Part shown: positions 29,273 to 35,360 of the stretch, piece after piece
Position numbering within the stretch: position 1 is the first letter of the stretch
Layout of the letters: every line of letters starts with the position of its first letter
Assembly: GCA_018240865.1 (NCBI GenBank)
Contig: JAFEEY010000076.1
Location: 1 to 36,864 of the forward strand
DNA length: 36,864 bases
DNA from: Pseudomonadota bacterium
GTDB taxonomy: Bacteria; Pseudomonadota; Alphaproteobacteria; Sphingomonadales; Sphingomonadaceae
Direction: 5' to 3'
The notes under the pieces: generated by a model
Databases searched by the model: none
What the model saw: only the letters and a program-made list of their open reading frames with translations
What the model was told of the DNA's origin: nothing
Translations under genes and position numbers: made by a program

Positions 29273-29284
29273 GGAAGGGATTAT

Positions 29285-29424
29285 TTCGCGCGAAGACGCG
29301 AAGACGCGAAGGGTTCGGAGCTGGGGACACGGGCGCGCCCTTTCGGCGAAGCCAATTTCTTGTTCGGCTTCGCCGGAAATTCCGGGACGCTCGGTATCTT
29401 TGCGTCTTTGCGTCTTCGCGCGAA
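29285..29424. repeat. Long palindromic element with CGCGAAGA octamers
   Basis: The 27-bp arms at 29285-29311 and 29398-29424 match at 25 of 27 positions when inverted. The left arm is TTCG plus three tandem octamers (CGCGAAGA, CGCGAAGA, CGCGAAGG; 29289-29312). A nested hairpin (GGCGAAGCC / GGCTTCGCC) lies near the centre at about 29345-29380. It fills the GT4-to-ileS gap. Its octamers are a C/G-variant of those at 792-823 and 27934-27957. Confidence 0.87.
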
Positions 29425-29476
29425 CCAATCGGGCCGGGGTGACGAGCGCCGAAGCGCGCGCTAAGGGCCGCTCCCT

Positions 29477-32320
29477 ATGGCCGACACTCCCGATTATCGC
29501 GACACCGTCTTCCTGCCCAAAACCGACTTTCCGATGAAGGCCGGCCTTGCGCAGAAAGAGCCGGCGATTCTCGACAAATGGAAGGCCATGCGCCTGTACG
29601 AGACGCTGCGCGCGAAGCGTGCGGGGCGCGAACGCTTCATCCTGCATGACGGCCCGCCCTACGCCAATGGCGACATCCATATGGGCCATGCGATGAACAA
29701 GGTGCTGAAGGACATCATCGTCCGCTCACAATCCCTGCTCGGCAAGGACGCGCCCTACATCCCGGGCTGGGACTGCCACGGTCTCCCGATCGAATGGAAG
29801 ATCGAGGAGGAGTATCGCAAGAAGAAGCAGAACAAGGACGAAGTGCCCGCGCCTGAGTTCCGCGCCGAATGCCGCGCCTATGCCTCGCACTGGGTCGGCG
29901 TGCAGCGCGCCCAGTTCGAGCGGCTGGGCGTGATGGGCGATTGGGACGACCCGTACCTCACCATGAATTACGACAGCGAAGCGGCGATCGTCGTCGAGCT
30001 GTTGAAGTTCGCGGAAACCGGCCAGCTCTATCGCGGCGCCAAGCCGGTGATGTGGAGTCCGGTCGAGAAGACCGCGCTGGCCGAGGCCGAAGTGGAATAT
30101 GAGGACATCACCTCGACCCAGATCGACGTGGCGTTCGAGATTGTCGAAAGCCCGATCCCCGAGCTGGTCGGCGCCCATGCGGTGATCTGGACGACCACGC
30201 CTTGGACGATCCCGGTGAACCAGGCTTTGGCCTACAATCCGCATATCGTCGACGAGCATTTTGACGCATCTTACGCCACCTTCCGAGCAGACGATGGCAG
30301 GCTGTTTCTGTTGTCGCGTGCGTTGGTCGATGCGTTTGCCGCGAGAAGCGGCCTCCAGTTGACTGAAGAAAGCGCCATATCGCCAGAGGCAATCGGGCAG
30401 AGTGTGGCCCGCCACCCGATGCACAAGCTCGGCGGTTTCTTCGCCAGGCCGCGTCCGTTCCTGCCCGGCGATTTCGTCACCACCGATGCGGGCACGGGCT
30501 TGGTGCATATGGCGCCCGATCATGGCGAGGACGATTTCGAGCTGTGCAAGGCGCACGGGCTGGAGCCGGTGTTCGCAGTGGAGGGCGACGGCAGGTATCG
30601 CGCCGACTGGGCGTGGCTGGGCGGCCAGGGATCGGTCATCAATCCCAAATTCAACGCGCCGGACGGCCCGATCTGCACCGACCTGCGCGAGGCCGGGGCG
30701 CTGCTGGCGGCGAGCGCGGACTATACTCACAGCTATCCGCATTCGTGGCGCTCCAAGGCCAAGGTGATCTTCCGCGCGACCCCGCAATGGTTCATCGGGA
30801 TGGATCGGGCGCTTGAGTTGCGCCCCTCGACTTCGCTCGGGACGAGCGGAGAAGGGGCCGAAAAAATCTCGCTCGTCCCGAGCGAAGTCGAGGGGCGTGG
30901 CTCCAACGGCCCCACCTTACGCGAACTCGCGCTGGACGCGATCGCGCGGACGCGGTGGGTGCCGGAGAAGGGGCGCAATCGCATCCAGGCGATGGTTGAG
31001 GGGCGGCCGGATTGGGTGATCTCCCGCCAGCGCGCCTGGGGCGTGCCGATCGCGCTCTACGTGAACCGCAAGACGGGGGAGTATCTGCGCGATCCGGCCG
31101 TCAACGCGCGGATCATCGAAGCCTTCAGGCAAGGCGGCGCCGATGCCTGGTTCTCGGCCGATCATCAGACCTTGCTGGGGCCGGACCATGCCCTCGCCGA
31201 TTACGAGCCGATCAATGACATTCTGGACGTGTGGTTCGACAGCGGCTCGACCCACAGCTTCGTGATCGAGCAGCGTTATGGCGAGGGTGTGCGGGCCAAT
31301 CTGTATCTGGAAGGATCGGACCAGCATCGCGGCTGGTTCCAGTCCTCGCTGCTGGAAAGCTGCGGCACTCGCGGGCGGGCGCCCTATGACGCGGTGCTGA
31401 CCCACGGCTTCGCGCTCGACGGGCAGGGGCGGAAAATGTCCAAGTCATTGGGCAATGTCGTCGATCCGCTGAAAGTGATGAGCGAGAGCGGCGCGGACAT
31501 TTTGCGCATGTGGGTCGCTTCCACCGACTATTTCGACGATGTGAAGATCGGCAAGGAAGTGCTGGCCGGCGCGTCCGATGCATACCGCAAGCTGCGCAAC
31601 ACGTTCCGTTACCTGCTGGGCGCGCTCGACGGGTTCGGTGAGGCCGAGCGGATCGACGACTTCCCTGAGCTGGAGCGCTATATCCTGCACCGCCTCGCGA
31701 CGCTGGATGCGGAGCTGCGCGATGCGACCGAGGCGTTCGAGTTCAACCGCTATCTCCGGCGGCTGACCGATTTCGCCAATGATGATCTTTCCGCTTTCTT
31801 CTTCGATATCCGTAAGGACTGTCTCTATTGCGACGCGGCCGATAGCCCCAAGCGGCGGGCCTATCGCACTGTGCTCGACATTCTGTTCAACGCGCTGGTG
31901 CGCTGGGTGGCGCCGATCATCCCGTTCACGGCGGAAGAAGTGTGGCAGACGCGCTTTCCGGATGCGGACGGCTCGGTGCATTTCGCCGATTGGCCGGACG
32001 TGGATGAGCGGTGGCGCGACGACGCGCTGGCGGCGAAATGGGATGGCCTGCGCACTTTGCGCGGTCAGGTCACCGAAGCGATCGAGCCGCTGCGGCGCGA
32101 GAAGGTGGTGGGATCCAGCCTGGAAGCCGAAGTCACCGTGCCGCAGCCGCCCGCGGCCGATCTGGAAGAGCTGTTCATCGTGGCGAAGGTATCACCGGGC
32201 GATAGCATCGCCGTGGAGCGCACCGACTATCGCAAATGCGGTCGCTGCTGGCGGCATCTGCCGGAAGTGACGGAGGACGGGACTTTGTGCGCACGGTGCA
32301 CGGAGGTGGTGCGTGGTTAA
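29477..32320 (+). CDS. ileS: Isoleucyl-tRNA synthetase (with repeat-encoded insert)
   Basis: A 947-residue class I synthetase charging tRNA-Ile. The HIGH motif is in PPYANGDIHMGHAMNK (68-71), the CP1 editing domain includes VIWTTTPWTIPVNQALAYNP, the second catalytic motif is GRKMSKSLGN (653-657), and the C-terminal zinc finger is YRKCGRCWRHLPE with LCARCTEVV. Domain order and ends are normal for proteobacterial IleS. Oddly, residues 449-474 (RPSTSLGTSG ... SLVPSEVEGR) between WFIGMDRAL and TLRELALDAIARTRWVPE have no counterpart in the family as I know it. They are encoded by a perfect 28-bp inverted repeat. It is followed by lspA after another palindromic element. Confidence 0.96.
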   Translation: MADTPDYRDTVFLPKTDFPMKAGLAQKEPAILDKWKAMRLYETLRAKRAGRERFILHDGPPYANGDIHMGHAMNKVLKDIIVRSQSLLGKDAPYIPGWDCHGLPIEWKIEEEYRKKKQNKDEVPAPEFRAECRAYASHWVGVQRAQFERLGVMGDWDDPYLTMNYDSEAAIVVELLKFAETGQLYRGAKPVMWSPVEKTALAEAEVEYEDITSTQIDVAFEIVESPIPELVGAHAVIWTTTPWTIPVNQALAYNPHIVDEHFDASYATFRADDGRLFLLSRALVDAFAARSGLQLTEESAISPEAIGQSVARHPMHKLGGFFARPRPFLPGDFVTTDAGTGLVHMAPDHGEDDFELCKAHGLEPVFAVEGDGRYRADWAWLGGQGSVINPKFNAPDGPICTDLREAGALLAASADYTHSYPHSWRSKAKVIFRATPQWFIGMDRALELRPSTSLGTSGEGAEKISLVPSEVEGRGSNGPTLRELALDAIARTRWVPEKGRNRIQAMVEGRPDWVISRQRAWGVPIALYVNRKTGEYLRDPAVNARIIEAFRQGGADAWFSADHQTLLGPDHALADYEPINDILDVWFDSGSTHSFVIEQRYGEGVRANLYLEGSDQHRGWFQSSLLESCGTRGRAPYDAVLTHGFALDGQGRKMSKSLGNVVDPLKVMSESGADILRMWVASTDYFDDVKIGKEVLAGASDAYRKLRNTFRYLLGALDGFGEAERIDDFPELERYILHRLATLDAELRDATEAFEFNRYLRRLTDFANDDLSAFFFDIRKDCLYCDAADSPKRRAYRTVLDILFNALVRWVAPIIPFTAEEVWQTRFPDADGSVHFADWPDVDERWRDDALAAKWDGLRTLRGQVTEAIEPLRREKVVGSSLEAEVTVPQPPAADLEELFIVAKVSPGDSIAVERTDYRKCGRCWRHLPEVTEDGTLCARCTEVVRG
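30821..30897. repeat. In-frame palindromic element inside ileS
   Basis: Arms 30821-30848 and 30870-30897 are perfect 28-bp inverted copies (CGCCCCTCGACTTCGCTCGG... and its complement) around a 21-base spacer. The element is translated as residues 449-474 of IleS without a stop or frame loss. The same words recur inside egtB at 36516-36645. Confidence 0.93.
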
Positions 32321-32420
32321 GCCCCTCCCCTTCAGGGGAGGGGTTGGGGTGGGGCGGGTTCGCCTGCCACGCCTTGATCGACATGCCCCACCCCCATCCC
32401 CTCCCCTGAAGGGGAGGGGC
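32321..32420. repeat. Palindromic element, CCCCTCCCC class, ileS-lspA gap
   Basis: Left arm 32321-32355 and right arm 32385-32420 are near-perfect inverted copies (about 35 bp, one indel), each with its own hairpin (CCCCTCCCCTTCAGGGGAGG). It begins one base after the ileS stop codon and ends two bases before the lspA ATG, so it forms the whole intergenic region. Its right end holds GGAGG for lspA. Confidence 0.9.
32413..32417 (+). promoter_or_regulatory. lspA ribosome binding site inside repeat arm
   Basis: GGAGG lies 5 bases before the lspA ATG and is part of the terminal hairpin of the palindromic element. Pairing with CCTCCCC in the same arm could hide it, so folding may modulate lspA translation. 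Confidence 0.65.
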
Positions 32421-32422
32421 GC

Positions 32423-32926
32423 ATGAACCCTTCCCGCCGCCTTGGCCTGCTGATCGCGCTCGCGATTTTCGTGACCGACCAAGCCGTCAAATGGGCGATC
32501 ACCGGCCCTATCGCGCTTGACGAGGTCGGGCAGGTCACGCTGCTGCCGGTGTTCAACCTGACCTGGGTGCAGAATTACGGCGTGTCGATGGGCTTCCTGA
32601 CCGCTGGGTCCGAGACGACGCGCTGGGCGCTGGTCGGTCTCACCGGGGCGATCGGGACCGGCGTTTTGGTCTGGCTGTGGCGGGAAACCAACCGGGCCGA
32701 CGTCATTGCCCTGGGCCTGGTGTTCGGCGGCGCGCTCGGCAATATCCTCGATCGGGTGCGGTTCGGCTATGTGGTCGATTTCCTCGACCTGCATTTCGGG
32801 GACTTCCGGCCCTTTTTGGTCTTTAACGTCGCCGACGCCGCGATTACCATCGGCGTCCTGATCCTGTTGCTGCGCGCCTTGTTCGTGCGGCCGAAGAACG
32901 AACCCGCGGAGAATGTGAATGCGTGA
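32423..32926 (+). CDS. lspA: Signal peptidase II (lipoprotein signal peptidase)
   Basis: A 167-residue inner-membrane aspartyl protease with four membrane helices (about 8-26, 64-86, 92-106, 132-155). Conserved segments are IFVTDQAVKWAI, FNLTWVQNYGVSMGFL, ALGNILDRVRFGYVVDFLDL with catalytic D119, and FNVADAAITIGV with D138. It cuts the signal peptide of prolipoproteins after lipidation. Two probable clients are encoded nearby: the lipoprotein that overlaps its end, and the GIN lipoprotein at 1541-2251. The ileS-lspA order is the classic one; here the gap consists of a repeat element that also carries the ribosome site. Confidence 0.95.
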   Translation: MNPSRRLGLLIALAIFVTDQAVKWAITGPIALDEVGQVTLLPVFNLTWVQNYGVSMGFLTAGSETTRWALVGLTGAIGTGVLVWLWRETNRADVIALGLVFGGALGNILDRVRFGYVVDFLDLHFGDFRPFLVFNVADAAITIGVLILLLRALFVRPKNEPAENVNA

Positions 32927-35269: not shown

Positions 35270-35360
35270 CCGTTCGGCCTGAGCTTGTCGAAGGCCTCCC
35301 TTCTTCTTGCCGGGCGGGACGAAGGGATAGGGAGGGCTTCGACAAGCTCAGCCCGAACGG
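35270..35360. repeat. Palindromic element, CTTCGACAAGCTCAG class (second copy)
   Basis: Arms of 32 bp (CCGTTCGGCCTGAGCTTGTC... and its inverted partner ending CAGCCCGAACGG) match at 30 of 32 positions around about 27 bp. It occupies the gap before the cobalamin adenosyltransferase gene and ends 10 bp before its start codon, with its last GG forming part of the GGAG ribosome site. Confidence 0.9.

Follow-up and report, generated by a model that had tools for sequence, protein, structure and literature searches.

A REPIN-like palindromic repeat within the isoleucyl-tRNA synthetase gene of a sphingomonad, in a loop that appears to be an insertion hot spot for several repeat families

Rickettsia palindromic elements (RPEs), a form of palindromic selfish DNA, are found in frame within housekeeping genes that include those of aminoacyl-tRNA synthetases (PMC10969869, PMC3767692), and in Rickettsia the choice between an insertion hot spot and a common origin, the latter raised as an alternative for RPE-4/6/7, was left open (PMC3767692). 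A second class of short repeats, the REPINs, is mobilised by RAYT transposases (PMC3116915). In addition, the passages of Di Nocera 2013 (PMC3733652) that bear on this subject describe intragenic GTAG- and CGTC-tagged REPs and REP dimers, some of which are translated in frame as 20-30 residues; among the genes with in-frame REPs they mention tRNA synthetases from E. litoralis and S. alaskensis, and they indicate that the sites differ for most genes, recB apart. In-frame REPs, including REPs within tRNA synthetases, are already known. Literature searches with sequence and peptide strings returned no matches, and those on insertion hot spots in IleS or other synthetases returned nothing relevant beyond Di Nocera 2013. 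The literature searched contained no description of recurrent capture of several repeat families at a single loop.

Both E. litoralis and S. alaskensis are sphingomonad relatives. From the bacterium considered here, a stretch of 36,864 nucleotides (the window) was analysed. Its plus strand carries, at 29477-32320, the gene for a 947-residue isoleucyl-tRNA synthetase (ileS, IleS), identified as an ORF with a profile match (TIGR00392; 794.9 bits, cut-off 621). Within that gene lies a palindrome whose left arm (30821-30848, plus strand) contains CCTCGACTTCGCTCGGGACGA and reads ..PSTSLGTSG, and whose right arm (30870-30897, minus strand) is its perfect inverted copy and reads LVPSEVEG; the arms are complementary at 28 of 28 positions, the 21-nt spacer between them (30849-30869, plus strand) forms the loop of the hairpin, and a wider, imperfect palindrome with 42-nt arms at 86% (30807-30911, no strand assigned) takes in the flanking bases. 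The chance expectation for perfect 28-bp inverted repeats with a spacer of at most 100 nt is 7e-10 in the window, in agreement with an earlier sequence-only reading that had called the arms exact inverted copies far beyond chance. That reading had also held that the frame stays open and gains about 26 residues, and the ORF does run uninterrupted across the element, which corresponds to IleS codons 449-474.

The 77-bp element is without a stop codon in all six frames, a property shared by 7% of random 77-mers from the window and by 31% of shuffled palindromes with matching composition. No second IleS was found in the genome, which is 99.6% complete and in which the runner-up match scores 72 bits. 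Translation of the element as part of IleS is expected, since the enzyme on either side of it is intact and in a single frame. The same continuity bears on the possibility that an assembly or sequencing artefact joined two contigs through a repeated element: the assembly does consist of 147 contigs and the repeat is multi-copy, but the IleS is full-length and its sequence is correct, and in a single frame, on either side of the element, and equivalent insertions are present in independent assemblies, several of them single-contig, which leaves such a join with next to no probability.

A genome-wide search for the element, which the sequence-only reading had proposed as a check, recovered 98 copies of the 21-mer core CCTCGACTTCGCTCGGGACGA at up to two mismatches (none for a reversed control), grouped in 60 clusters, while an 89-bp stretch gave 128 matching segments in the same genome. 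The 77-bp unit is a head-to-head (inverted) dimer of this repeat, and 37 inverted dimers are present in the genome, mostly with a spacing of 48-50 nt; 29 have the minus-plus order and eight the plus-minus order of the ileS copy, to which the closest other genomic copy is 88% identical. Of 124 related genomes, 21 contain the repeat (repeat A, at most one mismatch), which two members of the same genus lack. Because its cores are multi-copy, form inverted dimers and are patchily present across relatives, the element is a mobile-type, REPIN-like repeat. Like REPINs (PMC3116915), it pairs two copies of a short repeat in inverted orientation across a short spacer of fixed length, occurs many times per genome and coexists with RAYT genes. 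Unlike REPINs as described there, it was not found beside a RAYT gene of its own: the flanks of both Y1_Tnp (RAYT) genes of the genome, L141 and L142, were searched for the ileS repeat and contain other palindromes instead, each gene having its own (AAAATAGGGACAGTCCCTATTTT; GGTGACAGTTTACTTAATCCC), at L141 1365-1456 and 2106-2128 and at L142 824-852 and 1542-1563. A RAYT gene accompanied by its own palindrome is the arrangement of a REPtron, seen here for two further repeat families.

The element was at first taken for a CGTC-tagged REP, an identity that was subsequently rejected. The passages that define such REPs (PMC3733652) specify a CGTC end, a stem of 8-9 bp starting with A-T pairs and a loop of 4-5 nt; CGTC is present in the arm, but a single repeat unit folds weakly (-1.2 kcal/mol) into a short bulged stem that starts with C-G pairs. 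The broader resemblance to the REPs described in that paper (PMC3733652) lies in their being short palindromic repeats, often dimers, that supply in-frame peptides; the difference is that one IleS loop is struck here by several families, although ileS may itself be among the cases that the paper covers.

Pfam scans of the ORFs that span other copies placed the repeat in frame, within or between Pfam domains, in at least ten further recognised genes of this genome, including those of core enzymes such as NAD-dependent DNA ligase (ligA, L028), the glycyl-tRNA synthetase beta subunit (glyS, L022), an RNB-domain protein of the RNase R type (rnr, L049) and the small chain of carbamoyl-phosphate synthase (carA, L008), as well as those of TsaD, RibD, a phytoene/squalene synthase, an AMP-binding enzyme, a hydantoinase, a phage portal protein and an ABC transporter. 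A UvrD-like ORF probably carries a copy in frame as well, and the remaining copies are mostly intergenic or not assignable to a gene. The likeness to RPEs drawn by the sequence-only reading therefore holds for the mode of residence, a palindromic repeat in frame inside host genes (ileS and at least ten others, with translation presumed), and fails for kinship: the element is built as an inverted dimer from a REP-like repeat of sphingomonads, measures 77 bp against 100-150 bp, lacks the ATGAC motif of RPE-4/6/7 throughout 30807-30911 and comes from a different bacterial order. A further difference from Rickettsia, where hot spot versus common origin was left open, is that the families found at the one IleS site are demonstrably different. 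RPEs are the best functional parallel, and the ileS element, set apart by the length and motif descriptions of RPEs, is not one of them. The further proposal that a palindromic element is tolerated as a peptide in an essential sphingomonad gene agrees with its multiple copies, its in-frame presence elsewhere and its absence from the closest element-free relatives.

The peptide occupies most of a 37-residue loop (residues 444-480; 30806-30916, plus strand) between the conserved WFIGMD and LRELALD, a junction at which the same reading had known of no family insert. That statement did not survive comparison: from QWFIxMD to LRExAL, the loop measures 3-14 residues in most other alphaproteobacteria sampled and up to 70 in Sphingomonadaceae, where it often holds repeat-derived inserts. 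Such peptides are found in 40 of 150 sphingomonad-group IleS genes and fall into about six unrelated families, whose labels were assigned by visual inspection of the peptides and of the arm sequences: family A, the window's own (STSLGTNG..SSEVEG), B (VRAEPVEA..LRQAQGER), C (PSPxGEGLGEG..PHPNPSPEGEG), D (PSRLREGxGEG..PPLTPPASGRG), E (MPAKAGIS..TPASAGVT) and F (SGGGS..NPPPLGEVAAAPADGGG). A search with one member per family in its own genome confirmed families A to E as multi-copy there (128 matching segments for A in G000, 69 for B in G021, 44 for C in G036, 42 for D in G003 and 79 for E in G094); family F, with just five, is weakly supported as a genomic repeat. Among 117 IleS genes of the family, 19 of the 28 strong inverted repeats lie inside the loop, which makes up 3.6% of the gene (p ~2e-21, a value that treats genes as independent). 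Seven of the nine outside it sit at residues 316-319, a second hot spot, and the last two at residues 294-296 and 843-849. The second site (IleS residues ~313-327, HPMHKLGGFFARPRP; 30413-30457, plus strand) is empty in the window and holds other repeats in about 14 relatives.

Long loops throughout Sphingomonadaceae, set against short ones in other alphaproteobacteria, could also stem from a single ancient insertion that was inherited by all sphingomonads and later diverged past recognition, and a 35-residue loop type conserved over many genera does show that part of the length is old. The repeat-bearing loops already contradict such an origin, since their inserts belong to unrelated families and each closely resembles further copies in the genome that carries it, sister genes differ on the tree, and repeat-free loops stand beside filled ones. 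In a tree of 150 IleS proteins that FastTree built with both loops left out, the 40 genes with an element cannot be explained by fewer than 37 state changes, or 32 for presence and absence alone (minimum parsimony, one topology). Six genomes of the window's own genus have the loop states A, A, C, D, none and none, and the two without a loop element are also without repeat A; within a single clade, L206 has no repeat, and L160 and L087 share a loop start that is broken by repeats. Alignment of IleS across sphingomonads, also proposed with the sequence-only reading, showed that residues 449-474 are not conserved in palindrome-free genes. The closest element-free relatives lack the ileS element, but the loops of the nearest relatives differ too much to provide an exact empty site, and neither such a site nor a target-site duplication at the ileS insertion was found. 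Because the families are unrelated, sister genes differ and filled loops lie beside empty ones, the comparison of sequences argues that the loop is an insertion hot spot with multi-family capture, and a single ancient insertion is very improbable. The sphingomonad loop thereby separates a hot spot from a diverged ancient insertion, and settles its own case in favour of the former.

The 35-residue insert itself (..KTPAEKxWEGEGGAIDPADE.., HLPAKTPAEKAWEGEGGAIDPADETLCAAPT) follows WFVPMD and is carried, across many sphingomonad genera, by the IleS of L075, L080, L094, L097, L170, L171 and others. It is non-palindromic, old and located at the same site as the repeats, and is possibly a domesticated repeat.

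The reading frames of the inserts provide a further line of evidence. The left arm of family A (STSL) has the same codon phase (0) in eight of eight IleS genes (p ~5e-4 under random phase) and its right arm (SEVE) has phase 1 in seven of seven (p 1e-3 under random phase), although loop position and arm spacing vary. The minus arm of family B is in phase 1 in seven of seven genes, and families D and E keep one phase each (three of three in both); the frame of family C is less uniform. In other genes of this genome, STSL is the frame of the plus arm in 10 of 13 cases (p 0.0016, counted by eye), and the minus arm is found in all three frames. The near-constant frame within a family suggests that selection acts on the encoded peptide, and hence that it is translated, although a phase preference of the insertion event itself may be another source of the bias. 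Such a measurable bias may serve as a signature of selection on encoded peptides.

The constancy of frame also bears on whether the palindrome chiefly regulates ileS as a hairpin in mRNA or DNA, by slowing translation or altering mRNA stability, with the peptide as a by-product. The palindromic stretch folds as RNA into a single, very stable hairpin (-75.4 kcal/mol, z -11.5), as such a role would lead one to expect, but it is not conserved and is absent from the loop in most relatives, and a nucleic-acid function would not need a constant peptide frame. Likewise, no Rfam family reaches threshold for the palindrome, and the weak miRNA matches merely reflect the long hairpin. A regulatory hairpin is thus a most unlikely account of the element.

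An AlphaFold2 model of IleS (64 sequences; mean pLDDT 89.8) superposes on the solved IleRS structures 1qu3 (Z 38.0, 4.2 A over 840 residues) and 8wng (Z 38.0, 3.1 A over 878 residues). In the model, the insert enters between a strand and a helix; in S. aureus IleRS, the corresponding point lies between aligned residues 418 and 419. Residues 452-476, which nearly coincide with the element peptide at 449-474, are the sole segment with a pLDDT below 50, a value expected for any variable loop, and the peptide is accordingly predicted to be disordered.

Taken together, a REPIN-like inverted dimer caught in a tolerant IleS loop that is a hot spot for several families, and read through as a peptide, is the reading to which we assign a probability of roughly 0.87. 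A short palindromic repeat would multiply in sphingomonad genomes, and a copy in the form of the 77-bp inverted dimer would arrive, presumably by transposition, in a length-tolerant and probably surface-exposed loop; since all six frames of the repeat are free of stop codons, the gene would stay open, and the element would be read as about 26 residues of disordered loop. Loop 444-480 and a second loop near residue 317 would be hot spots because inserts are tolerated there, so that unrelated families could land many times, and purifying selection would retain the insertions that preserve the frame, presumably leaving each family with one harmless peptide frame in most cases. It is conceivable, but rather doubtful, that selection extends beyond openness of the frame, with IleS of Sphingomonadaceae retaining a general docking loop for palindromic repeats of many families, one peptide frame permitted per family, and with some old inserts, such as the 35-residue one, being domesticated former repeats that have a role in the enzyme. 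Under the hot-spot reading, selfish palindromic DNA would, outside Rickettsia, repeatedly remodel an enzyme that is both essential and highly conserved, and the independent insertions of several families at one loop would constitute a natural experiment on the peptide inserts that an aminoacyl-tRNA synthetase tolerates.

Additional palindromes of these and other types are found near ileS and across the window. Directly after the ileS stop, an imperfect palindrome of the GGGGAGGGG type (32321-32420; 34-nt arms, 91%) resembles loop family C and spans the gap to an ORF at 32423 that looks like lspA. Just 5' of ileS, an inverted repeat at 29279-29430 contains short GCGAAGAC-like runs. A second inverted dimer (CCGTTCGGCCTGAGCTTGTCGAAGG; 35270-35360, 32-nt arms, 94%) is of the family-B type that sits in the IleS of other genera, and inverted repeats of two other types (TCGTCATTCCCGC.. 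and TCTTCGTGTCTTTGTG..) lie nested at 708-855 and 749-815, such that this single 37-kb window harbors at least four to five repeat families.
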